Positions 1 through 62,386 of a DNA stretch of 64,000 bases are shown piece after piece; position 1 is the first letter of the stretch, and each line of letters opens with the position of its first letter. The translations under genes and the position numbers were made by a program. The notes under the pieces were generated by a model. It did not search any database, was not told the DNA's origin, and saw only the letters and a list, made by a program, of their open reading frames with translations. The stretch comes from Natronomonas gomsonensis (lineage in GTDB: Archaea > Halobacteriota > Halobacteria > Halobacteriales > Haloarculaceae). The DNA lies in contig NZ_CP101323.1 in NCBI RefSeq assembly GCF_024300825.1, forward strand, positions 1,488,001 through 1,552,000, given 5' to 3'.

Positions 1-719
1 ACGACGGCCGAATCCGGGAGGAGCCACACCAACATCCGCCCCGTCGTTTCGAGGTTGCCGGCAACGCCGACGAAGAACGCTCCCAATCCCGCCGCGAGCC
101 GACGTGGAGCGTCGTGGTTCGCCGCGATAGCCCCGGCCAGCCCGTAGGCGCCGGTGACGAGCGACGCGTAAAACCCCGCCAACGCGAGGTTGTAGGCGAA
201 CCGGGGCGCGGTTCCGGTGAACAGCGTCAACAGCGCGGCGAGCATGTGGCCGCCGTAGTAATATCGCACCGACTCGCCGGCGAACCACATGTCCTCCGGT
301 GGGAGCGTCCCGGCCTGAAGGAGCGTCCGGAGCAGTCCAAAATCGAGGAACTTCTCGCCGGTCGACAGCGGCAGCGGTGCGATGGCCGGTGACACCGACC
401 GAATCGCGACGACGAAACAGAACGCGACCGCGAACACGGCGGCGGCCTCGGCGAACGCGCGCTCGTCTATGTCGGCGTAGTCCCGAAGTGCGGCGCTTGC
501 GAGAACGAGAACCGCGAGAGCCACAAGAAGCGCGGGCCAGCCGAAAGCGACGTGTCCGACGAGATAGCCGACGACGGCGACGGTCGCGAGACCGACCGGA
601 ATCGCGAACGCGGCACCGCCGTCGTGAAACCGTGAAAACAACGCCCCGGACAGCGGCAGGGCGGCGAGACCGACGGCGAGATACATCACGAGCCAGAGCG
701 CGACGAGCCCGTATTCCAT
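1..719 (-). CDS. YYY-domain (DUF2298) polytopic membrane protein, 3' part cut by window edge
   Basis: About 239 codons are visible, read leftward from the ATG at 717-719 and still open at base 1. The product is a run of hydrophobic segments. Near residue 157 it carries RYYYGGHML, the tyrosine triplet that names the YYY/DUF2298 family of large archaeal and chloroflexal membrane proteins, which are thought to act on surface polysaccharide or glycoprotein. It diverges from a glycosyltransferase/GtrA pair, which fits a cell-surface glycan role. That role is inference from family and context. The rest of the gene lies outside the window. Confidence 0.85.
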   Translation of the reverse strand, partial: MEYGLVALWLVMYLAVGLAALPLSGALFSRFHDGGAAFAIPVGLATVAVVGYLVGHVAFGWPALLVALAVLVLASAALRDYADIDERAFAEAAAVFAVAFCFVVAIRSVSPAIAPLPLSTGEKFLDFGLLRTLLQAGTLPPEDMWFAGESVRYYYGGHMLAALLTLFTGTAPRFAYNLALAGFYASLVTGAYGLAGAIAANHDAPRRLAAGLGAFFVGVAGNLETTGRMLVWLLPDSAV

Positions 720-814
720 CATCCGTACGGCGGACGTGAGCCCCTATACCTCTTGTGGAGTCCGGATTCGAACGAGCCGAACGGTTTTTCATCGCCCGGG
801 CGCGAGAGAGGGGT

Positions 815-9378: not shown

Positions 9379-10314
9379 GTGACGCAGTACGTACTCTACG
9401 GCGGGAAAGGCGGCGTCGGCAAGACCACCTGTGCGGCCGCGACCGCGTTGAAGTACGCCCGCGAGGGCCACTCGACGCTCGTCGTCTCGACGGACCCCGC
9501 ACACTCGCTTTCGGACGTCTTCGACGCGCCAGTCGGCGACGAACCGACGCGAATCCACGACGATGTCGACCTCTGGGGCGTCGAAATCGACCCCGAGGAC
9601 CGAATCGGCCAGTACCGCGGCCAGGTCGGCGCCGCACTCGAAGAACTCGAAGACCTCGGCATCTCCCTGGACCAAAGCGATGTCGACGACGTTCTCGAAG
9701 CCGGCGTCGCTCCGGGCACCGACGAAGCCGCCGCGTTGGACCTCTTTCTGGACTACATGGACGACCCCCGCTACGAGTACATCGTCTTCGACACCGCACC
9801 GACGGGGCACACCCTTCGGTTGCTCAAACTCCCCGACGTGATGAGTTCGGCGATGGGGAAACTCATCTCCGTCCGTTCGCAGGTGTCGAGTCTCGCCGAC
9901 TCCGTCAGGAGCTTCATGGGGTCGGGGGAGGACGACGAGGACGACGATACGGAGACCGACATCGACCTCGAAGAACTGCAAGACCGCATGGAACGCGTCG
10001 CCAAGGTGTTACGCGACCCCGAGCGGACGGAGTTCCGCGTCGTACTCATCCCCGAGACAATGGCGGTGTTGGAGACCGAGCGCCTGCTCGCGGAGTTAGA
10101 GAGCTACGACATCCCGGCGAGTCGAGCCATCGTCAACAAGGTCATCGAGGACCCAACCCCCGGCTGTGAACTCTGTCAGGACACTCACGGGAGCCAGCAG
10201 AAACGCATCGAGGAGGCCAAAGAGCGCTTCGAGTTGCCGCTGACGCTCGTGCCGCGACTCGGCGGCGAGGTCCACGGCATCGAGGCAGTCGAAACCGTCG
10301 CCGACCGCCTGTAG
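9379..10314 (+). CDS. ArsA/Get3-family ATPase
   Basis: 311 residues, GTG start fixed by the promoter spacing. The deviant Walker A P-loop GGKGGVGKTT lies at residues 8-17, followed by STDPAHSLSDVF (switch I type) and FDTAPTGHTLRLLKLP (switch II type). A CELC pair near residue 260 matches the zinc-binding CxxC of Get3 that joins the dimer. Get3 homologues target tail-anchored membrane proteins; ArsA pumps arsenite. A single ATPase domain plus CxxC and no ars genes nearby favour a Get3-like role. An acidic insert (EDDEDDDTETD) is a halophilic trait. Confidence 0.9.
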   Translation: MTQYVLYGGKGGVGKTTCAAATALKYAREGHSTLVVSTDPAHSLSDVFDAPVGDEPTRIHDDVDLWGVEIDPEDRIGQYRGQVGAALEELEDLGISLDQSDVDDVLEAGVAPGTDEAAALDLFLDYMDDPRYEYIVFDTAPTGHTLRLLKLPDVMSSAMGKLISVRSQVSSLADSVRSFMGSGEDDEDDDTETDIDLEELQDRMERVAKVLRDPERTEFRVVLIPETMAVLETERLLAELESYDIPASRAIVNKVIEDPTPGCELCQDTHGSQQKRIEEAKERFELPLTLVPRLGGEVHGIEAVETVADRL

Positions 10315-10354
10315 TCGGGCCAACGCTTACCACATCGCCGCCCTAACGAGGGGT

Positions 10355-10855
10355 GTGGACACCGTCGAGGTCACGACCGTCGTCTATCTCCCGCCGGAAG
10401 AGGTCTACGAGTTCCTGCTCGGCTTCCAAAGCTACGCGGAGTACTCCGAACATCTCACCGGAGTCAGGCAGTTCGGGGACGGTGAACCGGGGACCGAGTA
10501 CGAACTCGACTTCTCGTGGTGGAAACTCACCTACACCGCACGCTCCCGCGTCACCGACGTCGACCCGCCGAACCGCATCGACTGGCACATCATCAAGGAC
10601 ATCGACGCCGTCGGCCAGTGGCTCGTCGAACCCCACGCAAGCGGGGAGGGAACGGAGGTGACGATGCGCATCAGATACGCGCCGGATTCCGCCAACGGAA
10701 ACGCGTTGAACCTGCCGCGGTTCGTCTCGCTGGACTGGGTCGTCGACAAGATAACGCCGAAGGTGAAGTCGGAGGCCGAACGCGTCGTCCGACGCATCGT
10801 CGCCGACCTCGAAGGCGATCACCGGAACGTGGAACTAGAAATCGAAACGTCCTGA
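10355..10855 (+). CDS. SRPBCC/START-like lipid or ligand-binding protein
   Basis: 166 residues, GTG start at 10355. The pattern VEVTTVVYLPPEEVYEFLL at the N-terminus and a long C-terminal helix (VKSEAERVVRRIVADL) are typical of the SRPBCC fold (polyketide cyclase/CoxG-like), a deep hydrophobic pocket with a closing helix. Such proteins bind small hydrophobic ligands or help assemble oxidoreductases. It follows the ATPase gene by 40 bases on the same strand and has its own weak CGCTTACC box. The ligand cannot be inferred. Confidence 0.82.
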   Translation: MDTVEVTTVVYLPPEEVYEFLLGFQSYAEYSEHLTGVRQFGDGEPGTEYELDFSWWKLTYTARSRVTDVDPPNRIDWHIIKDIDAVGQWLVEPHASGEGTEVTMRIRYAPDSANGNALNLPRFVSLDWVVDKITPKVKSEAERVVRRIVADLEGDHRNVELEIETS

Positions 10856-10880
10856 AGACACCACCGTTCGCTCGCGGTGG

Positions 10881-11498
10881 TTATTCCTCGTAGTCTCCTC
10901 CATATTTCATGAAGAAGTAGCCGAGTCCGAGCGTCGTCGCCAGCCCGATGAACGTCGCGACAGTCAGCGCCAACGCGCTGTCGGGAATGATGATGGCTGG
11001 CCCTTCGCTGCCGCCGACCTCGATGGTCGAGACATCGTCACCGACGGCGATGCCACCTCGCATGCCTTGCGGTTCGTGAGGAATACAGCGGTACTCCGTG
11101 ATACCAGCGTCCTCTTCGGTGAACTCGTACTCGTAGGTCGCCCCTTCCTCGTCGACGGGGTCCCCGCTGTCGAGTGTGGCCGCTCCCTCGTTGGTGTTGA
11201 CGTTGTGGGCGCCGCCTTCGCCGGTCCACTCCCACGTTATCGTCGTTCCGGGCGAAATCCACACCGTCGCGGGGTCGAACGCCAGTCCGTTGTCGCCCGC
11301 GCCGACGCTAATCGTCAGTTCCTCCTGTCCGCGGGCGTCCTGAACGCCGTCCTCCGAGTAGAGGTTCGCTTCGCTGAGATACCCGCTGAACTCGGGAACC
11401 TCCGTCTGTGCGGCAGCCGTCCCCGCGGCGGCAGCAACGGAGGCCGTCCCCGCCGCTGCCGTCATGAACCCACGACGGCTCATGTCGTTCGTGCTCAT
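10881..11498 (-). CDS. halocyanin (blue copper protein) with C-terminal membrane anchor
   Basis: 205 residues from the ATG at 11498; an upstream start at 11537 would bury the signal. A Tat signal (SRRGFMTAAAG) exports the folded protein. The cupredoxin domain shows all four type 1 copper ligands: His98 in GGAHNVN, Cys138 and His141 in YRCIPHEPQG, and Met146. A single C-terminal helix (ALALTVATFIGLATTLGLGYFF) anchors it outside the membrane. It should carry electrons between respiratory complexes. It is a close paralogue of the halocyanin of the bc operon at 18924-19589 but stands alone here. Confidence 0.93.
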   Translation of the reverse strand: MSTNDMSRRGFMTAAAGTASVAAAAGTAAAQTEVPEFSGYLSEANLYSEDGVQDARGQEELTISVGAGDNGLAFDPATVWISPGTTITWEWTGEGGAHNVNTNEGAATLDSGDPVDEEGATYEYEFTEEDAGITEYRCIPHEPQGMRGGIAVGDDVSTIEVGGSEGPAIIIPDSALALTVATFIGLATTLGLGYFFMKYGGDYEE

Positions 11499-11539
11499 AC
11501 CGACCTTTTGCCACCACCCCGTACTGAATCTGTTCATTC

Positions 11540-11690
11540 GCGCCGACCTTTTTGCACGGACCGGCAGAGCCGGTCCGGCAAAAACGTCGACGAAAAAGAC
11601 ACATCGGGCCTCCTTACAGTCGGCCCTCGGTCCTGCGCGCCAAAGGCGCGCAGTGAACCGCTCGCTCCCTACGGTCGCTCTCGGATGCTA
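11540..11690 (+). repeat. dispersed intergenic hairpin element, copy B
   Basis: TTTTTGCACG (11549-11558) and GGCAAAAACGT (11577-11587) flank a perfect GGACCGGC-AGA-GCCGGTCC hairpin. Next comes GACGAAAAAGACACATCGGG from 11589, matching copy A at 2394. The 35 bases at 11655-11689 recur in reverse orientation inside copy C (28841-28875) with one mismatch. Other hairpins include GCGCGCCAAAGGCGCGC. No gene is seen between 11499 and 11748. Confidence 0.65.
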
Positions 11691-11748
11691 CACTAAACCA
11701 ATCAAAGACCGGGACTCTTGTGGTCCGGGATAGCTTCAGCTCAGTCGG

Positions 11749-12798
11749 CTACAGCGTGTAGTCGTGACTCCCGTCCTCGCTATCGAGGAACGCGACGAGG
11801 AGGTCGACGACCGCATCCACGTCGTCGACGTGGACGCTTTCGGTCGGCGTGTGGAGGTACCGCGTCGGCACTGAGATGGCTCCTGCCGGCGTCGCCCCGG
11901 AGGTCCGCTGGAGGCCACCGGTGTCGGTACCGCCGGCCGGTAATACCTCGAACTGGTGGTCGATGTCGCCGTCTTCGGCGACCGAACGGAGCCGACGGTG
12001 GACCTTGTGGTTCGTGATGACGCTGCCGTCTTTGAGTTTGATGCCGGCCCCCTCGCCGAGTCGCGTCACCTGCTCGCCCGGTTCGAAGCCGGGCACGTCG
12101 TTTGCGACGGTCGTATCGAGGGCGACGACGAGGTCCGGGTCAAGGTCGACGCCGAGCGCCTCCGCGCCCCGGAGGCCGACTTCCTCCTGTGTCGTCGCCG
12201 CGAAGTGGACGGTCACATCGGGGGCTTCGAGACGGCGGGCAGCCTCCAGCATCGCGAACACGGACACGCGGTTGTCAAGCGCCTTGCCGGTGACGAACTC
12301 GCCGACGCGTTCGGTGGTCTGGTCGATGGTCACGAGGTCGCCGACGGAGACGCGCTCGGAGACGGCCTCGGCGTCAAGGCCCAAATCGACGTGGATGTCG
12401 TCGACATCGGGCTGTTTCTCGCGCTCCTCATCGGACAGCGTGTGTGGCGGCACCGATCCGATGAGGCCCGGAACGTCGCCGTCGTCGGTGTGGACGGTGA
12501 CGCGCTGGGCGCGGAGGATTCTGGGGTCCCACCCACCGAGAGCGTCGAGTTCGAGGAAGCCGTCGTCGTCGACGTGACGAACCATGAAGCCGATTTCGTC
12601 CATGTGGGCCGCCACGACCACGTCGTACTCTCCCGACCCGACACTGCCGACGAGGTTGCCCATCGCATCGGAGCGAATCCGGTCGACGTGCGGTTCGAGT
12701 TCCTCGCGAACGAGCGCGCGCACGCGGTCCTCGTATCCCGGGACGCCGCGCGCTTCGGTAAGTGCGACGAGCAGGTCGTCGTCGAAATCGTCCGTCAT
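11749..12798 (-). CDS. M42-family zinc aminopeptidase (TET/endoglucanase-type)
   Basis: 349 residues from the ATG at 12798; the longer reading to 13020 overlaps the next gene and has an arginine-rich extension. Metal-binding and catalytic motifs of the M42 family are present: AAHMDEIGF (His and bridging Asp region), a TTQEEVG pair of glutamates, and PAGGTDTGGLQ near the C-terminus. M42 enzymes form large tetrahedral complexes that trim peptides in the cytoplasm. A CGCTTAAATC box about 27 bases upstream indicates a leaderless transcript. Genomes often label this family cellulase or endoglucanase, which is misleading. Confidence 0.92.
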   Translation of the reverse strand: MTDDFDDDLLVALTEARGVPGYEDRVRALVREELEPHVDRIRSDAMGNLVGSVGSGEYDVVVAAHMDEIGFMVRHVDDDGFLELDALGGWDPRILRAQRVTVHTDDGDVPGLIGSVPPHTLSDEEREKQPDVDDIHVDLGLDAEAVSERVSVGDLVTIDQTTERVGEFVTGKALDNRVSVFAMLEAARRLEAPDVTVHFAATTQEEVGLRGAEALGVDLDPDLVVALDTTVANDVPGFEPGEQVTRLGEGAGIKLKDGSVITNHKVHRRLRSVAEDGDIDHQFEVLPAGGTDTGGLQRTSGATPAGAISVPTRYLHTPTESVHVDDVDAVVDLLVAFLDSEDGSHDYTL

Positions 12799-35240: not shown

Positions 35241-36131
35241 ATGACCGACGACAACAAACCCACGACGTACAGCCTCTCGCGCCGCAAGACACTCGCCGGA
35301 CTCGGGGCCATCGGCCTCGCCTCCGCCGGCGCCGGGCTCGGCACCTCCGCGTTCTTCAGCGACACCGAGACCTTCGAGAACAACACCCTCACGGCCGGCA
35401 CGCTCGACATGAACGTCACCGCGACCATCGAGGCAGCCAGCGAATACTTCGAAGACGCAGTCGGGATGAGCCTCACGGCGGACGACAGCGAGGCCGTCGC
35501 CGGTCTCGTCGTCGATGACATCAAGCCCGGCGACTGGGCGGTCATCTGCTTCGACATCGAAGTTGGCGACAACCCCGGCTACGTGATGGTCTCGACGGAG
35601 AACTTCTCGGAAGACGGCGGCGAGAACCCCGAACCCGAACAGGAAGCCGAAGGCGATACTGACAACGACGCTGACCTCGGCGAATTCCTCCTGACCACGG
35701 TCTGGCAGAACTTCCCGGGGTCCGGCAGTTCCAAGGGCGACCTCGCGAACCTCGACCCTGTCTTCAACAACAGTTCGAGCGACGTGGAGCTGTCGGGCGG
35801 CTACCAGCCACCCACCGACCTCGACGGCGTCGTCGACGGCGACGTGCACTACACCACCGCACGCGAGGCCAACGACGCACTCGAGAACTACATCATCAAG
35901 GACACAAACGGCGACCCGCTTCCAGTCAATGACACCGAAAGCGAAGGTGTCTACTCGTTCTGTCTCCTGCTCGAACTTCCCTTCGAGGTCGGCAACGTCA
36001 TCCAAGGCGACAGCCTCGGCTTCGACCTCGTCTTCGAGACCGAACAGGTCCGGAACAACGACGATCCGTTCAACAACAGCGTCAGTACGCCGACGCCCAC
36101 TCCGACCCCCACGCCGACTGGACCCCAATAA
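35241..36131 (+). CDS. SipW-class (TasA/camelysin-like) exported protein with Pro-Thr tail
   Basis: 296 residues. The N-terminus SLSRRKTLAGLGAIGLASAG then AFFSDTETFENNTLTAGTLD matches the SipW-cognate signal class used by TasA-type fibre proteins; a double Arg precedes the helix. The rest is acidic and beta-rich. Near the C-terminus is LELPFEVGNVIQGDSLGFDL, a motif shared with its downstream neighbours, followed by a threonine/proline tail (TPTPTPTPTPTGPQ), likely glycosylated or wall-spanning. First gene of a same-strand run ending in a signal peptidase and stalk protein. Probable surface fibre or matrix subunit. Confidence 0.85.
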   Translation: MTDDNKPTTYSLSRRKTLAGLGAIGLASAGAGLGTSAFFSDTETFENNTLTAGTLDMNVTATIEAASEYFEDAVGMSLTADDSEAVAGLVVDDIKPGDWAVICFDIEVGDNPGYVMVSTENFSEDGGENPEPEQEAEGDTDNDADLGEFLLTTVWQNFPGSGSSKGDLANLDPVFNNSSSDVELSGGYQPPTDLDGVVDGDVHYTTAREANDALENYIIKDTNGDPLPVNDTESEGVYSFCLLLELPFEVGNVIQGDSLGFDLVFETEQVRNNDDPFNNSVSTPTPTPTPTPTGPQ

Positions 36132-36157
36132 TCCACCATTAGCATAAACAGACTATC

Positions 36158-37879
36158 ATGACTCAAGACCCAGAACCGAAACTGTACGACCTCTCTCGCC
36201 GCAAGATGCTCGCGGGCATCGGCGCGGTCGGCCTCGCTTCGGCGGGTGCCGGCTTCGGCACCTCGGCGCTGTTCAACGACACCGAGACCTTCGAGGAGAA
36301 CTCCCTCACAGCGGGGGAACTCGACTTGCTCGTCGACTGGCAGCAGACCTACAGCTACTCGATGGGGGGTGAGGAAATCACTACGTTCGTCAACGCACAC
36401 CCCGACCACGACGGCGACGGTGAACAGTCCATCATCGACCCCCAGACCGAGGAGGTCTCTCGATACACCGACGAGTCCCGCAACCTCGCGGGGCTGAACT
36501 GCGAGAACATCCCGCCGCTGTCGGAGGCCGACTTCGGCACGGACCCCATCACCGAAGAACCGATGGAGACGCTCATGCAGTTTAGCGACATCAAGCCCGG
36601 CGACGAGGGCGAGGTAACGTTCTCGCTGCACCTCTGTGACAACCCCGGCTACGTCTGGATGCAGGCCTCCGATGTCTCCGAGAGCGGGGGGGACCACCCC
36701 GACCCGGAGATGGCCGTCGACGCCGACAACCTCCCGGACCTCGCGGAGGAAATCGCCGTCCGTCTGTGGTACGACGCCGACTGCGACAACGTCTACGACG
36801 AGGCCGAACCGGCCGATATCATACTGACGCTGGATTTCTCCGGGTCGATGCTGTACGACCAGTTCGGCGGCGTCGTCAACGAGGAGGAAATCGAGGTCGA
36901 CGGAGACACCTACGACGAGACGACGAAAATCGATCTCGTCGAGTTGGGCGTCAAGCAGTTCATCGAATACCTCGACGAGTCGAACGCCGACGTGGAGGTG
37001 GGCGTCGCCTACTTCGACGGCGAAGGCGCCGACAACGTCGGGCCCCGAGTGGGCCTCCTGGAGGGACTCACCAACGACCTCAGCGCCGTCGACACCGCCG
37101 TCTCCGGTCTCCGGCAGAAACTCGCCAACGTCGTCTCCGGCGCGAATAACGACCCGTTCATCAACGACGGCAACGCCGACCCCTCCGCTGGCGGCGGTAT
37201 CGCCACCGGTACCTACATCGGGGAAGGCGTCAACGAAGCGCAAGTCGAACTCCGTGACAACGGTCGTTCCGGCGTCGAGTACGTGAACATCGTTCTCTCG
37301 GACGGCGAGTCGTTCAACGGGCAGGGACCGACGCAGTTCTCTGACCCGACGGAAGCCGCGGACAACGCCCGTGACCCGCAGGGGTCACCGACCCACGGCA
37401 GTCCGACGCCGGCCTCGCCCGCGACGAACCTCTACACCATCTCCGTCGGGAGCGCAAACGACAGCGTCCTCCAGTCGATGGCTGGACCCGCCGGCGGCGC
37501 GGGCGGTGCGACCGCCTACTTCTTCGACGTGAACGACCCGACCAATATTCCGACCGTCTTCGGCATCCTCTCGAACGCCGTCGGTCCGGAGTCGGAGATA
37601 TTCAACGGGTCGCTGGCGGATGCACTCGCCGTCCTAGAGAGCGGAAACGGACTCCCGCTCGACGGCAACGTTTCGACGCCGTTCGATGAGTTCGTTGAAT
37701 CGGCGACCGACGACGACCGTGAACCGTTCGCCGGCGGACAGATGTACTGTCTTGGATTCTCGTGGGAACTGCCCTTCGAGGCCGGCAACGAGGTGCAGGG
37801 CGATACGCTGGGTTTCAACCTCGGCTTCTACACCGAACAGGCGCGGTACAACGACGGAAGCGGGTCGGCACAGGCCTGA
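36158..37879 (+). CDS. SipW-class exported protein with inserted VWA domain
   Basis: 573 residues. It has the same signal region as its upstream neighbour (LSRRKMLAGIGAVGLASAGA, ALFNDTETFEENSLTAGELD) and the same C-terminal motif (WELPFEAGNEVQGDTLGFNL). Between them, from about residue 218 to 465, is a von Willebrand A domain with the metal site D226-x-S228-x-S230 (TLDFSGSM) and a TLYTISVGS-like late strand. VWA domains bind protein partners through a metal ion, so this may cross-link or cap a fibre. It starts 26 bases after the previous stop. Confidence 0.88.
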   Translation: MTQDPEPKLYDLSRRKMLAGIGAVGLASAGAGFGTSALFNDTETFEENSLTAGELDLLVDWQQTYSYSMGGEEITTFVNAHPDHDGDGEQSIIDPQTEEVSRYTDESRNLAGLNCENIPPLSEADFGTDPITEEPMETLMQFSDIKPGDEGEVTFSLHLCDNPGYVWMQASDVSESGGDHPDPEMAVDADNLPDLAEEIAVRLWYDADCDNVYDEAEPADIILTLDFSGSMLYDQFGGVVNEEEIEVDGDTYDETTKIDLVELGVKQFIEYLDESNADVEVGVAYFDGEGADNVGPRVGLLEGLTNDLSAVDTAVSGLRQKLANVVSGANNDPFINDGNADPSAGGGIATGTYIGEGVNEAQVELRDNGRSGVEYVNIVLSDGESFNGQGPTQFSDPTEAADNARDPQGSPTHGSPTPASPATNLYTISVGSANDSVLQSMAGPAGGAGGATAYFFDVNDPTNIPTVFGILSNAVGPESEIFNGSLADALAVLESGNGLPLDGNVSTPFDEFVESATDDDREPFAGGQMYCLGFSWELPFEAGNEVQGDTLGFNLGFYTEQARYNDGSGSAQA

Positions 37880-37967
37880 CCCAACGGCACACATCCTACT
37901 ACCTTCCCACGCTGGCGTACGGGGGTTCGACTCCTCCGGTGGGCATCTCCGCACGCGGAGAACACCT

Positions 37968-39299
37968 ATGACACGAGACAACCAACTGTACGATCTAACC
38001 CGGAGAAAGCTACTCGTGGGTGCCGGTGCCGTCGGCCTCGCTTCGGCGGGTGCTGGGCTCGGTACCTCCGCGTTCTTCAGCGACACCGAGAGTTTTGAGG
38101 GCAACACCATCACGGCCGGTACGCTCGATTTACTCGTCGGTTACGAGTCGACGTACAACGGCGCTCCAGCCGAGAACCTCGCTCAGATGCCGTCGGGAAC
38201 GGCCGACGGCCCCGCGGGACTGTTCTACACGCTTGACGACGTGAAACCCGGCGACTCCGGGTCGTTTCAGTTCTGTTTCGAGTTGAACACCAACCCAGCC
38301 TATCTCTGGCTGTGCACCGAGGGGACGGAAGACGCCGAAAACGGACAGAACGGCCCCGAAATCACTGCAGAGGGTGTCGACACCGACGGACTCGGTGAAC
38401 TCGACGACAGCATCCTCGTCGACGCCGCTTACTGCGATTCTGACGGTACGCCGCTCGAGGGGGGCGAAATCGCCTCGGGCGTGACGTTCGCGGGACTCCT
38501 CGCGGCGTTCGAATCCGGTACGCCCCTGAACGGCGACGGCGTCGACGCCACCCCGGGTGAGCAGTCGCCGTACCCGGCCAGCAGCGAGCGCGGCGCAACC
38601 ACCGGACCATGTGTCTGTTTCGAGTGGGAACTCCCCTTCGAGGTTGGCAACGAGGTGCAAAGCGATTCCTTGGCGTTCAACGTCGAATTCCACGCGGTGC
38701 AGGCGCGCAACACCAACGGGACGCAGAACCCTTGTGGTGAGGACATCGAAGCGCCGGCCGACGAGCCCCCGAATACGGACTTCGAGGACGGACAGGACAG
38801 CGGCTGGCAGCTCTTCGGAGACGCCACGACTTCCGAAGCACAGGTCGTGAGCACCGGCGGTAATCTCGGGGCATACCTCGAGGGAGTCGACACGGCTACC
38901 GGCGGTATCTGGTACTTCGATGCCCCGGAATCGTTCCTCGGTGACCAATCCGCGTTCGCCGGCGGAAGTCTAGCCTACGACCTCACACAATCTCCGGCGG
39001 GGTCGTTGGTTCGCGACGACATAGTCCTCGTCGGCGGTGGAACGACGCTGACGTACCGCTACGACTCTTCGGCGGATTTCCCAGCGCTAACACCCGCCTG
39101 GTCCGAGTACGAGATTCCGCTCGATACGAGTGCAGGCTGGCGAATCGGTACCAGCGGGTCGTACGGGAGCCGAACACCGGCGACATCAACACAAATCGCC
39201 GCCGTTCTCGGCGATTTGACGGCGCTCAGGATTCGCGGCGAGTTCGTTAACGGGAACGACACTGGCGGGCTGGATAACCCCCAATTCGTCGCACCGTAG
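37968..39299 (+). CDS. SipW-class exported protein with C-terminal laminin-B-like domain
   Basis: 443 residues from the ATG at 37968; the longer open frame to 37686 runs inside the previous gene. Signal region: LTRRKLLVGAGAVGLASAGA, AFFSDTESFEGNTITAGTLD. The shared motif WELPFEVGNEVQSDSLAF is at 220-237. From about residue 270 a second domain begins with IWYFDAPESFLGDQSAFAGG, LAYDLTQSP, DDIVLVGGGTTLTYRYD and ends LDNPQFVAP. This pattern resembles the laminin IV (laminin B) domain seen in secreted adhesins. It is likely a matrix or adhesion component. Cysteines are unusually frequent for a haloarchaeal protein. Confidence 0.85.
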   Translation: MTRDNQLYDLTRRKLLVGAGAVGLASAGAGLGTSAFFSDTESFEGNTITAGTLDLLVGYESTYNGAPAENLAQMPSGTADGPAGLFYTLDDVKPGDSGSFQFCFELNTNPAYLWLCTEGTEDAENGQNGPEITAEGVDTDGLGELDDSILVDAAYCDSDGTPLEGGEIASGVTFAGLLAAFESGTPLNGDGVDATPGEQSPYPASSERGATTGPCVCFEWELPFEVGNEVQSDSLAFNVEFHAVQARNTNGTQNPCGEDIEAPADEPPNTDFEDGQDSGWQLFGDATTSEAQVVSTGGNLGAYLEGVDTATGGIWYFDAPESFLGDQSAFAGGSLAYDLTQSPAGSLVRDDIVLVGGGTTLTYRYDSSADFPALTPAWSEYEIPLDTSAGWRIGTSGSYGSRTPATSTQIAAVLGDLTALRIRGEFVNGNDTGGLDNPQFVAP

Positions 39300-57281: not shown

Positions 57282-57962
57282 ATGACACGACTGTACGGAG
57301 ACGCAAAGCGGGTTGCCGTTGTGGTTGTCGTCGCGACTCTGTTCTCCTCTGTCTTCGCTGGGGTGGCCGCCGCCGACATCGAAGTCAGCGGCGAGTTCGA
57401 CGGAACCCTCGCCGGCTACGGCGAAGACGCCGAGACGCCGAACGAGATAACCGTCGACGGGCAGTTCACCGTCGAGGGCGAAACCGCGGTCGACCCCGAA
57501 ATCGTCATCGAAGGGACGGACGCGGCCGTCCTCGACACCGACTCGATAGAGGTGTTCGTCGAGGGGAGCCAGTCCATTTCATTCGACCGCCAGTACCGCG
57601 CCGGCGAGGTTCGGTTGACGCCTGCAGAGGGCGAAATCCCCGCCGGGACGACCATCCGCGTTGAGTTCGCCACCTACTTCACCGGCGGCACCACCGCCGA
57701 CACCATCGACGCCGGAACGGCGACGGTGAGCTACGAGACCGCGGGCGGCACGCCCGGCGAATCGTCGTTCACCGCCCAAGCCAACGCGTCGAACAGCCCC
57801 GACAACCGAATCGAGTCCCTTCAGTCAGAGATAGCGGACGGAACCCGGACCAGCCTCGTCATGCAGGTACTCGCCGGTATCGGCGCTTTGGCCATCGTCG
57901 TCGCCGTCATCGGCGGCGCCGTCGTCATCTATCGTCGACGCAACTCCGGCCCCGACTGGTAG
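57282..57962 (+). CDS. signal-peptide protein with single C-terminal membrane anchor
   Basis: 226 residues. A signal peptide (VAVVVVVATLFSSVFAGVAA) is followed by a beta-rich extracellular domain with repeated short strands (EVSGEFDGTLAGYGEDAE, VDGQFTVEGETAVDPE), then a C-terminal helix (VLAGIGALAIVVAVIGGAVVIY) and a basic stop (RRRNS). So it is anchored with its domain outside. It converges on the tubulin-like gene, ending nine bases from that stop. A GAACTAAATC box lies upstream. No family recognised. Confidence 0.7.
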   Translation: MTRLYGDAKRVAVVVVVATLFSSVFAGVAAADIEVSGEFDGTLAGYGEDAETPNEITVDGQFTVEGETAVDPEIVIEGTDAAVLDTDSIEVFVEGSQSISFDRQYRAGEVRLTPAEGEIPAGTTIRVEFATYFTGGTTADTIDAGTATVSYETAGGTPGESSFTAQANASNSPDNRIESLQSEIADGTRTSLVMQVLAGIGALAIVVAVIGGAVVIYRRRNSGPDW

Positions 57963-57971
57963 TCGAGCGGT

Positions 57972-60683
57972 TCAGTCCGCGGTCGCTTCCTCGTCGACGA
58001 ACTCTATTTTGATTCCCTCGCGGTCCTCGAACTCGCGGGCGTACTCCTCGAGCAGTTCCTCCCAGGAGACGTTGCCGGCGAGCCACTGGCGCTTCTTCTC
58101 GGAGGCGGGCGAGAGTTCCTGGACGGCGTTCCAGCCGAGTTGGACCCCATCGAGTGCTTGCTTCCACCCGCGGAACCCGATGGCACCGTCTTCGTAGTTA
58201 TCCCAGAGGACGCCCTGATAGAGGTAGCTGACGACGCCGTCGCGGCTGATGAACTCGTGTTTCAGTTCGCCCTCGTCGGCGGCGCCGGTTTCGAGTTGGA
58301 CGTACTCCAGTTTCGGTTCCGGCGGCATCGGCAACTGAATGGTCTTGTCGGTCCCGAACACCGACCGAACATCGCGGCCGTACCACTCGGGATAGGCGAA
58401 CGCCAGTCGGTAGTCGTCCCAGTGTTGGGCGACGAGGTCGTCGAGGCCGCCGTCGTCGGCGTAGGAGTCCAGTTCCTGATACAGTCGCAACACGTCGACT
58501 GGACCGGTTCGGACGTAGGCGACGAACTTGACGCGATGGGAGTCGTAGCTGTCGTCCGTGTAGCGGTTGTACCCCGAACTCGCCGTCGAAACACGCTCGA
58601 AGGAGATGGCATCCTCGTTGTCGTCGTCGTAGACGATGTACATGTCCGTCTCTATCATCCCGAGACTCTGGAAGTAATTGAGAGCGTCGTCGGGCGCGTC
58701 GTCCTCGTCGACGTCGAGAACGAGTCGCGGTTCCTTCTGGAAACACCGCTCGTAGCGCCGGGCGATAGCCTCGAGGAAGTCGTCGCGGTCGACGTATCCC
58801 TCGTCGAGATACGACTCGATATCCGTGAGGTCCGTCTCCAGTTTTTCGAGCGTCACCTCCTCGAGGGCCTCGGGTTCGAGGGGCATCCGTGCGATGCGAA
58901 GCCCCGATTGGTCGGGGTCGGTGAGTTCACGACGAAGCGACTTGAGGTCGTCTCGGGCGTCGCCGAGTTCGCGTTTCTTGTGTTTGAGTCGACTCTCGAT
59001 TTCGGCACGCTGGTCGACGATGCCGTCGCTGAGGTCGTTGAGTCCGTCGTAGTCGTCCTCGACCTCTCGGAGCCGTTCGAGTGCCTCCTTCAGGTTCGAC
59101 AGTCGACTGTTGAGTTTCTCCTCGCGGCCTTTGATCCCGGGCTTGCCGTCCCAGAAGGACTCCTCGACCTCCTCGAGTTCGACCTTGGTGTCCTCGATTC
59201 GGCCCCGGAGGAAGTCGAAGAGGTTTCGCGCCTTCTGGTTGACCCGAGAAACGTCGCCGAACTCGGGGTGTGAGGAGAGTTCGAAGTGTTTCCACATCTC
59301 CGAAACCGTCTCCTCGCGTTTCTCGCGAACTTTCGGCTCTTGCTCGTCGAGTGCGGACTCGATTTCGTCGAGCGCGAAGGGGACGAACCGCAGGTCGTGT
59401 TCGGCCTCGACTTGGTCGAGCACCGACGCGATGTCCTCGCGGGTCCGGTTGACCATGTTGACGCCGCCGCCGAGGCTGTTGTCGATTATCTCACGGACTT
59501 CGCGTTTGGTCTCGCTCGCCTCCTCGGGGTCCAGTTGCTCGAAGACCACATCCGAGTTCCGCACGAGGTGTTCGATGGCGTCGAGGTCCGAGTCCGTCGC
59601 TTCCAGCGAGGAGCGACCCGCATACAGCAGGCTCTCCAGCGCCTCGATTTCGGATTTCGTCTCACAGTAGATTCGGAGCGTCTCGTGGGGAATCTCGACT
59701 TCCGTTTCGACGACGGTTCCGACCCGGGGGTCGGTGTCGGAGACGCCGGAGACGTTCTCCATGTCGTCGCCGTGTTTCGCCATCGTGTAGATGGATTCGG
59801 CGACGGTGTTGTCTATCATCTGGTCGTAGCGTTCGAGGCCGGCGGAGGACTGTTCACCCTCGATTTTGTCCTCGTTGACGCCGACGAGGAAGTAGTCGTT
59901 GAACGGCTGGGTGTCGAACTCGAAGGCGTTCTCCTCGAGGGCGGCGTCGATAGCGTCGCTCGTCGAGGTGTCCCCGTCGGGGTCGTGTCGAGAGTGAATC
60001 GGGAGCCGGAGGCTGTCGTTGGCGTCGGCGTTGAGCAGGTGTTCGAGGTCACGCAGTGCGGCGTAACTGTTGGCGTAGTACCGCCCGTCGTCGCCCGGGA
60101 GCTGTTTGATGTCCCGACCGAACTCGAACTCGGGGACGACGCCGAACCCGCCGAGGTAGGCGAACATGTTGTTCCGGTTGCGGATGTTCTCGGCGAGGTG
60201 GTGGAGAATGCCGGTCAGAATCGGGAACGTCCCGCTTCCGGTCCCCCCGCCGAGGGAGTTCACAAGCAGGATGTTGATGTGTTTGTTCGAAGACGTGAGC
60301 GCGGTCTGGTGGTCCTGTCGGAACCGGTTGACGTTACGCTGAATCGTCTTGAACACGTCGGAGAAACTCGGCTCCTCGGGATTGTCGAACTTGTACCGAC
60401 CGACGGGGCGTTGGCGCTCCGCGCCCTTCGCTCCGAACCGCATGCTGTTGGTCAGAAACGGGAACTCCTCGCGGTGCGTTCCGACCAGCGTGTCGGGGGT
60501 CTTCAGATAGAGGTTCTTCTCTATCGAGGAGCTGTTGAGCTCGCTCATGTTGGAGTCGACAATCAGATAGTCGAAGTACGCCGACTCCTCTTCCGGGACG
60601 TGTCGTTTGAGGGTTTCGAGAACCTCGATTCCGGCCTGTCCCACCCCGATGAGAAACGTCGGTGACGGCTCTTTGCCAGCCAT
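57972..60683 (-). CDS. long tubulin/FtsZ-superfamily protein (Tubulin_2-like) with central coiled coil
   Basis: 903 residues. The N-terminal GTPase fold has LIGVGQAGIEVLET (residues 11-24), VDSNMSEL, and the tubulin signature LGGGTGSG at 144-151, then YLGGFGVVPEF and YANSYAALRDLEHLL. From about residue 480 to 600 there is a long charged coiled coil (LNSRLSNLKEALERLREVED and more), and a C-terminal part of about 300 residues without recognisable motifs. This differs from FtsZ and CetZ (about 350-400 residues). It should bind GTP and perhaps polymerise. An ATTAAATAA box 26 bases upstream gives a leaderless mRNA. Confidence 0.88.
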   Translation of the reverse strand: MAGKEPSPTFLIGVGQAGIEVLETLKRHVPEEESAYFDYLIVDSNMSELNSSSIEKNLYLKTPDTLVGTHREEFPFLTNSMRFGAKGAERQRPVGRYKFDNPEEPSFSDVFKTIQRNVNRFRQDHQTALTSSNKHINILLVNSLGGGTGSGTFPILTGILHHLAENIRNRNNMFAYLGGFGVVPEFEFGRDIKQLPGDDGRYYANSYAALRDLEHLLNADANDSLRLPIHSRHDPDGDTSTSDAIDAALEENAFEFDTQPFNDYFLVGVNEDKIEGEQSSAGLERYDQMIDNTVAESIYTMAKHGDDMENVSGVSDTDPRVGTVVETEVEIPHETLRIYCETKSEIEALESLLYAGRSSLEATDSDLDAIEHLVRNSDVVFEQLDPEEASETKREVREIIDNSLGGGVNMVNRTREDIASVLDQVEAEHDLRFVPFALDEIESALDEQEPKVREKREETVSEMWKHFELSSHPEFGDVSRVNQKARNLFDFLRGRIEDTKVELEEVEESFWDGKPGIKGREEKLNSRLSNLKEALERLREVEDDYDGLNDLSDGIVDQRAEIESRLKHKKRELGDARDDLKSLRRELTDPDQSGLRIARMPLEPEALEEVTLEKLETDLTDIESYLDEGYVDRDDFLEAIARRYERCFQKEPRLVLDVDEDDAPDDALNYFQSLGMIETDMYIVYDDDNEDAISFERVSTASSGYNRYTDDSYDSHRVKFVAYVRTGPVDVLRLYQELDSYADDGGLDDLVAQHWDDYRLAFAYPEWYGRDVRSVFGTDKTIQLPMPPEPKLEYVQLETGAADEGELKHEFISRDGVVSYLYQGVLWDNYEDGAIGFRGWKQALDGVQLGWNAVQELSPASEKKRQWLAGNVSWEELLEEYAREFEDREGIKIEFVDEEATAD

Positions 60684-60713: not shown

Positions 60714-60806
60714 CCCTTGGGTCACCTCAAAACCGAGCGACGGAGTCCGACTGGACGCGTCGGGTCGACCACCAAGTGACCGAACGGCCGGCCCGCCGGC
60801 GAGACG

Positions 60807-60835: not shown

Positions 60836-62386
60836 GTGAACCGACGCGGGGAACAGGGTGCGACGAATCGAAACGCCGCGGACATCGTCCAGGCGACGAT
60901 GGTTCGTCTCGATACCGCCACGGAGGGCACCGTCGAACTCGACATCGAGTACGACTTCGCCGACCGGCTGACGGGCTGTAGCGTCGCCATCCCCTCGACG
61001 CTCGCCGTCGACGGCACCCGAGGCTTTCGGACGAACGGACGCCAGTACGACTGGGACGGGGCGACGAACCCCGCGCGGTTGAGCGGGAGTCTCTCGGCCG
61101 ACACCGGCGGACCGGGAACCTACCGGTACGTCGACGCCGGCGATTGGGCCATCGTACAGCGCCCACAACTGAGCATCGCCTACCAGTACCGAGGTGCCGA
61201 GCCGGCGTTGCAGCGACGCTACGACGTCGACGGTGAGGGCGTCACCAGTTCCGACGGTTCGGTGATGTACCTCGGCCCCCACGACGAGTACACCGACACC
61301 ACCGCTGGCCAGCGGTTCCGGCTCGTCGTTCCCGAGGCGGCGGCGCTCCGCCCGTCGGTCGACGCCGTGCTGTCGGCGCTGGGCGACGCCGCCGCCCGTC
61401 TCGATGTCGGCGGTCGAAACGACGAAGTCCTCGCCATCGCCGCCCCGACCGGCGTCGGATGGGGCTCTCTCGGCGTCCAAAGCGGCGCCAACGGCTTTTG
61501 GACACAGGACGACTGTCGACTCGACAACGTCAACAACACGTGGATTCACGAGTACGTCCACACGCGACAGGAGTGGGACCGCTCGGCGTCGACGAAGTGG
61601 CTCGTCGAGGCGACGACGGAGTACTACGCGTCTCTTTTCACCTACCGTCGCGGTCAGGCACCGTTCTCGGCGTTCCACGACTACGTCTCGACGAACCGGG
61701 ATTCGGGGTCGGTGCTGGTCGACCCAAAGCAGTGGACCAGCAGTCAGGCTTACTACACGAAGGGTCGTCGCGTTCTCGCCGCCCTGGACCTCGAAATCCG
61801 CGAGGCGACCGGCGGCGAGTCGACGTTCCAGGACGTGTTCCGTCGCATCAATGCCTACAACCGGCCACTCACCCACACCGCCTTCGTCGATATCGTCGCC
61901 GAGGTGGCCGGTCGACGACTCGACGACTGGCTGGACCGCTACGTCTGTGGCTCCGCTTCCCCCGAAATTCCCGACGACGAAGGCGCCTTCAAGTCGCCAT
62001 CGTCGATGTCGGGAAGCGGCGGACCGACGCCGGAACCCGAACCAGAAACTGAACCAGAACCCGAACCAGAAACTGAACCAGAACCCGAACCAGAAACTGA
62101 ACCAGAACCCGAACCAGAAACTGAACCAGAACCCGAACCAGAAACTGAACCAGCGACGATTCCGTGTCCGGTCTGTTCGACCGAGGTTTCGGAGGACCGC
62201 CAGTACTGTCCGGCCTGTGGGCAGTCACTCCACGAGCAGTGTCCGGTGTGTGGGACTGGCGTCGAAGGGGAGGTGTACTGTCCGGAGTGTGGCAGCCGCC
62301 TCGAAGAGGCCTGCCCGGTCTGTGATGCGACCCGGGTCGACGACGAGCGATTCTGTGAGCGATGCGGGCACGACTTCGAGGCGTGA
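60836..62386 (+). CDS. HExxH metallopeptidase-like protein with Pro-Glu repeat linker and three zinc ribbons
   Basis: 516 residues, GTG start chosen from promoter spacing; no signal peptide, so probably cytoplasmic. The middle has HEYVH at 238-242 and [10 protein letters not shown] from 255 with a third-ligand Glu258, the gluzincin pattern, though with 15 rather than 18 residues between. Residues 399-438 are five perfect copies of PEPEPETE. The C-terminus has six CxxC knuckles (CPVC/CPAC, CPVC/CPEC, CPVC/CERC), enough for three zinc ribbons. It diverges from the tubulin-like gene and may act with it. Substrate unknown. Confidence 0.85.
62030..62149 (+). repeat. tandem repeat, 5 x 24 bp, inside the metallopeptidase-like gene
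   Basis: A 24-bp unit (GAACCAGAAACTGAACCAGA and four more bases) is repeated five times with almost no change and encodes PEPEPETE each time. CCA and ACT codons, rare in this genome, show recent slippage expansion. Copy number may vary among strains. Confidence 0.9.

Follow-up and report, generated by a model that had tools for sequence, protein, structure and literature searches.

A predicted split tubulin fold with a helical arm in an FtsZl1 protein of Natronomonas gomsonensis and its paired membrane protein

Introduction

How is a tubulin-like protein built when it is more than twice as long as FtsZ and contains a long coiled coil, and which partner does it have? This question is raised by a locus of Natronomonas gomsonensis, found in a stretch of 64,000 nucleotides of contig NZ_CP101323.1 (hereafter 'the window'). 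Proteins of this kind were grouped in 2010 as FtsZl1, defined from a 1051-residue Halorhabdus protein in which an FtsZ-like N-terminus is followed by an extended coiled coil and then by a C-terminal domain made up mostly of helices (PMC2875224). In the portions of that paper available to us, T6-H7 was not confidently identified, the secondary structure did not fully agree with S6-T7, and the C-terminal domain was seen to have no likeness to FtsZ or tubulin. It was also noted there that essential elements of the FtsZ fold had not been found, and that filaments, if FtsZl1 forms them at all, might arise in a new way. As far as its available text goes, a 2023 paper set the group aside as divergent (PMC9871819).

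Results

The reading frame at 57972..60683 (minus strand) encodes a product of 903 residues and is retained by a codon-usage gene call, in keeping with the initial annotation. The protein is a member of the FtsZl1 (Pfam Tubulin_2) family: PF13809 matches residues 11-343 above the curated cut-off (E 1.8e-24, 87.1 bits, cut-off 27), while PF00091 (FtsZ) stays below its own (26.9 bits, cut-off 33). It is the one protein of the genome clearly above the Tubulin_2 cut-off, an ordinary CetZ frame being barely at it. Five ordinary homologues, two FtsZ and three CetZ, are encoded elsewhere in the genome; at 389-418 residues they confirm that the FtsZl1 protein exceeds twice the usual length. It also has the other FtsZl1 traits, a GGGTG(S/T)G loop within an FtsZ-like N-terminal region, the extended coiled coil and the mostly helical C-terminal part. 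Since this layout is that of the available 2010 description, the architecture is not new (PMC2875224). Proteins of Natronomonas sp. CBA1123 (96% identity) and N. gomsonensis YCN60 (95%) are near-identical to it, and in a phylogenetic tree of 28 rows the protein falls within a clade of seven (support 100/99). Two or three tandem FtsZl1 genes occur in the genomes G245, G212, G270, G090 and G173. A sequence search of the PDB returned weak matches only, at E 0.36 and worse, all in the helical region. Two other identities were rejected as coiled-coil noise, namely SMC/Rad50 from NCBIfam, far below the cut-offs, and a defence family from PADLOC.

The GTP-binding signature is complete, as the initial annotation had it. 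Family comparison and sequence place the T1 phosphate loop GVGQAG at residues 13-18 (60630..60647; this and all further features of the protein are on the minus strand) and the T4 signature GGGTGSG at residues 145-151 (60231..60251), and T3 reads GAERQRPVGR. Within T4, residues G146, G147, T148 and G151 are invariant in all 28 family members. Alignment of an N-terminal profile with the profile of the FtsZ/CetZ proteins of the same genome (hhalign, residues 9-216, probability 97.9) pairs YYANSYAAL with IYNRNAARSF of CetZ, which identifies T5/H5 at residues 201-217 (60033..60083), including N205, present in 28/28 members. Our first labels, with helix 201-217 as H7 and an insert between H10 and S9, were abandoned because this alignment sets N205 at T5/H5.

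The rest of the fold was followed in AlphaFold models of the 903-residue protein (15-row alignment, pLDDT 75.9, pTM 0.63) and of a Methanospirillum relative of 733 residues (13-row alignment, pLDDT 80.0, pTM 0.70). As most alignment rows are common to both, the two models are not independent. In the former model, strands S1 (residues 9-14), S2 (37-43), S3 (57-59), S4 (135-143) and S5 (174-185) and helix 201-217 are followed by a strand (263-270), a helix (286-308), a strand (320-330), a helix (333-354) and a helical region up to about residue 588. Behind the coiled coil come three more strands (678-685, 705-709 and 717-725), then a helix (733-743). Structure comparison, the output of which consists of aligned ranges rather than residue-by-residue alignments, gives CetZ1 (4b46) as the best match of both models, with Z 24.7, rmsd 3.9 and 311/330 residues over 7..749 for the 903-residue protein, and Z 24.8, rmsd 3.6 and 317/330 residues over 13..697 for the Methanospirillum protein. 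The next matches of the former are CetZ 3zid (Z 24.6) and CetZ2 4b45 (Z 23.5). FtsZ chains end at 726-740 on this model, mostly at 727-728, where strand 717-725 finishes, whereas CetZ chains end at 749-756; on the Methanospirillum model, FtsZ chains mostly end at 674-676, the end of S10.

In FtsZ, S7 is followed by H9, S8, H10, S9 and S10, and the S8-H10-S9-S10 part amounts to about 60 residues. The FtsZ chain 6y1v has 282 of its 304 residues matched on the 903-residue model, whereas about 244 would be the limit for the part ahead of the insert taken by itself. Such matches need the part behind the insert, as the stretch before it is without those 60 residues or so. Because a nearly whole CetZ chain is aligned on both sides of the coiled coil in both models, our analysis suggests that the coiled coil has been inserted into the activation domain, between H9 and S8, and that the C-terminal part does not form a domain of its own. 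The reading of this part as a separate domain was dropped on account of the CetZ and FtsZ chains that span both sides. The predicted tubulin fold would thus start with residues 7-354 (S1 to S7 and the start of H9; 59622..60665; model, structure match and hhalign) and be completed by residues 678-743 (S8, S9, S10 and the following helix; 58455..58652; model and ends of the FtsZ/CetZ chains). That the N-terminal half is tubulin-like, as first proposed, is borne out by the Tubulin_2 match and by the fold that it takes in the model.

With this frame, T5-H5, S6, H7, T7 and S7 of FtsZl1, not found in 2010, can be placed in the model. By order of elements, S6 is strand 263-270, the H7 core helix is 286-308 (59760..59828), T7 is 309-319 (59727..59759) and S7 is strand 320-330; the labels H7 and T7 are based on this order and on a low-confidence global hhalign alignment. 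In the model, pLDDT is low near residues 232-245 and at the margin of T7 (308-317), and H8 was not seen. The initial annotation had been unable to place the T7-loop catalytic acid with certainty by eye; with this assignment, the loop itself has a place. The loop starts with E309-N310; the E309 column holds D or E in 16/25 short-type members, and the N310 column N in 15/25. The FtsZ-type NxDxxD motif, present in the two FtsZ of the genome, is absent from residues 300-323 of the 903-residue protein and from the T7 position of all 25 short-type members. The pattern does occur twice, in L051 and L072, at other places of the stretch. In the tandem copies L040_6618, L047_10159 and L048_4993, the loop is even shorter. 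The catalytic acid of FtsZ is therefore not conserved; judging from the sequence, E309 is at most a candidate substitute.

As for the coiled coil, a heptad test over residues 481-590 gave a contrast of 0.556 against a shuffle mean of 0.238, a value that none of 2000 shuffles attained. The model has two long helices, 481-512 and 517-588, joined by a four-residue turn (513-516), which suggests an intramolecular antiparallel hairpin. The predicted helical insert covers residues 355-632 (58788..59621; model, structure match and heptad test), its long helices, a probable hairpin arm, residues 431-588 (58920..59393; model and heptad test). The initial annotation described a coiled coil of about 120 residues that divides the GTPase half from a C-terminal domain of 300 residues. 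The coiled coil itself stands; in the models the dividing role does not, with S8-S10 and a helix behind it, and the helical region is longer, at about residues 355-632. That a coiled coil could allow dimerisation or partner binding is possible. Further on, residues 597-903 comprise about 136 helix and 43 strand residues in the model (hand count), and the strands complete the tubulin fold. A FAYPE motif at residues 762-766 (58386..58400) is conserved in the family alignment (A in 23, Y in 24, P in 24 and E in 22 of the 25 short-type members). It is followed by an extension belonging to this clade, residues 780-903 (57975..58346), much of which has low pLDDT in the model.

The gene at 57282..57962 (plus strand) is convergent with the FtsZl1 gene and 10 nt away from it. 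Its product of 226 residues has a signal peptide, a beta-type ectodomain, one C-terminal transmembrane segment (TM) and a short tail, features read from its sequence, with hydropathy run on relatives. A profile of 13 such proteins was searched against 292 haloarchaeal genomes, yielding matches in 60 genomes at E <= 0.001, 19 of them at E <= 1e-25. The other 41 were dropped; their E values are 4.3e-6 or worse, and most of them cover only part of the protein, at its signal-peptide or its TM end. Every one of the 19 strong matches neighbours an FtsZl1 gene: the distance is at most 352 nt in 17 of them and 1795 nt in G212 and G270, where the partner lies between two FtsZl1 copies. The profile rows come from 11 of the 19 genomes; G252, G270 and G204 are near copies of rows, and G090, G040, G247, G155 and G202 are not in the profile. 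In G202, the FtsZl1 neighbour is a 228-residue remnant. The partner is present in all 18 fetched genomes with an intact FtsZl1 gene of 750-960 codons; a second FtsZl1 copy of G276 (L046) is without it. In a sample of 294 genomes of the phylum, which overlaps the former set, 12 matches were obtained; six weaker ones were dropped, and the six strong ones (E <= 2.7e-52) are all beside such FtsZl1 genes. The partner also adjoins FtsZl1 in Methanospirillum (L073), Methanomicrobiales (L071), Halobellus (L072) and L070. This membrane protein is thus paired with an FtsZl1 subfamily. It is not universal, since FtsZl1 relatives with other neighbours exist. In a more distant type of about 900 residues, a different protein with a signal peptide and a TM is adjacent in the four loci inspected (L090-L093). 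Our literature search, with most subscription journals outside its coverage, returned no earlier account of the split fold or of the partner; the partner may be listed among families A1-A2 and B1-B9 in the supplements of the 2010 paper (PMC2875224).

Several of these loci have features of their own. In the G202 contig (L075, G202:C2:20000-39900), positions 9442-12282 hold the broken FtsZl1 gene, of which a 228-residue C-terminal piece and a 366-residue piece match the family profile. L070 is labelled as a Thermotogae bacterium metagenome-assembled genome; its FtsZl1 groups with Methanomicrobiales (100/100) and has the same partner gene, as in a mis-binned contig or a transfer. On a Halolamina pelagica contig (L066/L047), the partner frame is shortened and interrupted by a stop, and an IS200/IS605-like pair (130 and 421 residues, by first residues) separates tandem FtsZl1 copies. 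Near the FtsZl1 genes of the 900-residue type, L090, L091 and L093 encode a protein of about 300 residues starting with a T1-like GIGxAG and one of about 420 residues with two N-terminal TM.

On the other side, a divergent gene at 60836..62386 (plus strand) encodes an M61-like metallopeptidase of 516 residues (536 from an upstream GTG at 60776) with an HEYVHTRQ...E motif and C-terminal zinc ribbons, according to the motif and a homologue search. Pfam M61 stays below cut-off in those peptidase relatives where it appears. A proline/glutamate repeat linker ahead of the zinc ribbons (62021-62156) differs in length in near relatives. The wider peptidase family is found in 220/292 haloarchaeal genomes, and linkage was counted in only the nine genomes with E <= 1.2e-123: among the matches listed, eight of these closest homologues are at FtsZl1 loci, and the 19 kb retrieved for the ninth (G217) contain no FtsZl1 frame. 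The clade of seven rows and its near copies (G252, G270) represent seven genomes, all with the peptidase at the locus.

The module of three genes is flanked by grpE-dnaK and dnaJ; its genes are in mixed orientation and hence do not form one operon. N. gomsonensis YCN60 (L065) has the same gene order and one additional gene of 578 codons. A gene of about this length is located between dnaK and dnaJ in L065 (11550-13286) and L081 (6693-8432) and is absent from the window. Six other Natronomonas genomes, without the module, have no such insert: dnaJ is near dnaK in three (L082, L086, and L081 with a 579-residue gene product between) and was not called in the fetched stretch of L083, L084 and L085. 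From this arrangement, the module looks like an accessory insertion. HSP70-type genes are also present at two other FtsZl1 loci, L042 (by first residues) and L049; even so, the case for a functional link of the module to DnaK/DnaJ at this locus is weak. The flanks of the window gene, namely the membrane protein, the peptidase, dnaK and dnaJ, include no vWA or kinase gene. Clusters of the latter kind, usual for FtsZl1 though not a defining trait, occur at the FtsZl1 loci of L044 and L072 and are a feature of relatives, not of the window gene. Elsewhere in the window, 35241-39299 encodes three successive secreted proteins with a common start, with further related genes up to 43331; this start presumably resembles that of TasA/camelysin-type SipW substrates.

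Discussion

We propose that the FtsZl1 protein is a membrane-tethered cytoplasmic GTPase of complete tubulin fold, in which a lateral helical arm (residues 355-632 or so) splits the activation domain between H9 and S8, a reading to which we give a probability of roughly 60%. GTP would bind at T1-T6 as in FtsZ and might drive head-to-tail contacts at the membrane. The arm would project sideways and join neighbouring subunits or filaments, or meet the membrane partner, while the latter would tether the assembly and couple it to something outside the cell. As T7 is short and without the FtsZ acids, GTP is probably hydrolysed slowly or by a different catalytic mechanism; the protein would then behave less like a treadmilling ring and more like a stable polymer or a switch. 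A probable further member of the pathway, within this clade, is the zinc-ribbon metallopeptidase.

Could the split fold be a modelling artefact, with the C-terminal part docked onto an incomplete FtsZ domain and in truth a separate domain, as assumed in the initial annotation and in the available 2010 text? A profile of residues 600-770 alone gave no match to the CetZ/FtsZ profile of the genome (hhalign, probability 0.1), and both model alignments are shallow. Nevertheless, two proteins of about 20% identity yield the same order, S7-H9-insert-S8-S9-S10-helix, with Z above 24 and nearly the whole CetZ chain aligned, and we hold an artefact to be quite unlikely. The protein might also be a non-polymerising, GTP-regulated dimer, a switch with an arm that bridges partners. 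The long coiled coil would suit such a device, and T7 and H8, which complete the active site of the next subunit, are reduced and devoid of NxDxxD; yet the fold is otherwise that of the filament formers CetZ, FtsZ and TubZ, and in the available sections of their paper the 2010 authors thought filaments likely (PMC2875224). This makes a dimeric switch rather doubtful in our opinion.

A role in an NTP-dependent conflict system, in which a sensed threat makes the tubulin-fold protein assemble and switch on an effector, at a threshold set by HSP70, vWA, kinase, phosphatase or peptidase partners, appears comparably unlikely. The available text on GTPase-centred (GAP1-N2) systems lists tubulin with a C-terminal coiled coil, vWA, HSP70+GrpE, kinase+zinc ribbon and PP2C (Kaur et al. 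2020, PMC7159879), and similar neighbours are found in relatives: vWA, PK+FHA, PP2C and zinc ribbon+FHA at L044, vWA and PK+FHA at L072, and HSP70+vWA at L049. The patchy distribution among the matches listed and the insertion between dnaK and dnaJ also fit an accessory system. However, those systems have a DO-GTPase and GAP1, neither of which was recognised beside the window gene, nor did a scan without their own profiles find a P-loop GTPase in the two flanking genes. No effector domain was seen at the locus, PADLOC matches only the coiled coil, and the strongest partner is a constant rather than a variable gene. A plasmid or phage partition protein of the TubZ/PhuZ kind is hardly credible: TubZ chains do align (4xcq, Z 21.8), but the gene is chromosomal and beside dnaK/dnaJ, no partition-type neighbour was noticed, plasmid matches are only three and weak (22-24% identity), and two viral-contig scans revealed no relative. 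The BFVD search gave five matches at E <= 0.001, the named ones being phage FtsZ, tubulin or cell-division proteins.

Compared with known systems, the tethered, arm-bearing GTPase that we favour is nearest in structure to CetZ of Haloferax, an uninterrupted fold of about 350-400 residues without the insert. With the FtsZl1 family, as far as the available 2010 text describes it, it shares the GTP signature, the coiled coil, the mostly helical C-terminal part, linked membrane proteins and separation from the FtsZ/CetZ of the cell; it differs from that description in that the models place both T6-H7 and the C-terminal part, with S8-S10 behind the coiled coil (PMC2875224). The only Tubulin_2 phenotype that we found is that of a Synechocystis sll0445 mutant, with impaired phototaxis and altered photosystem fluorescence. 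Sll0445 has the same domain and is likened here by description; in the accessible text, it has pilus-protein partners and an interruption phenotype, and its gene neighbours differ from those in the window (PMC9880817).

It is tempting to go further and to regard FtsZl1, tentatively and with less than even confidence, as a further structural class of the tubulin-fold cytoskeleton: complete tubulins with a coiled-coil arm built into the activation domain, every one of them having a single-pass membrane receptor as its dedicated partner, so that their GTP-driven assembly inside the cell would be reported to the cell surface or controlled from there. The 903-residue protein adds one more member to a family already known, and the domain division first given to it was wrong in an informative way. 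The membrane protein encoded at 57282-57962 is a specific partner candidate for this FtsZl1 subfamily. If the split fold is true, the family would consist of entire tubulins that carry an arm, a simple answer to the puzzle of 2010. Defined constructs could then be used to test for the formation of filaments, GTP hydrolysis and tethering to the membrane.
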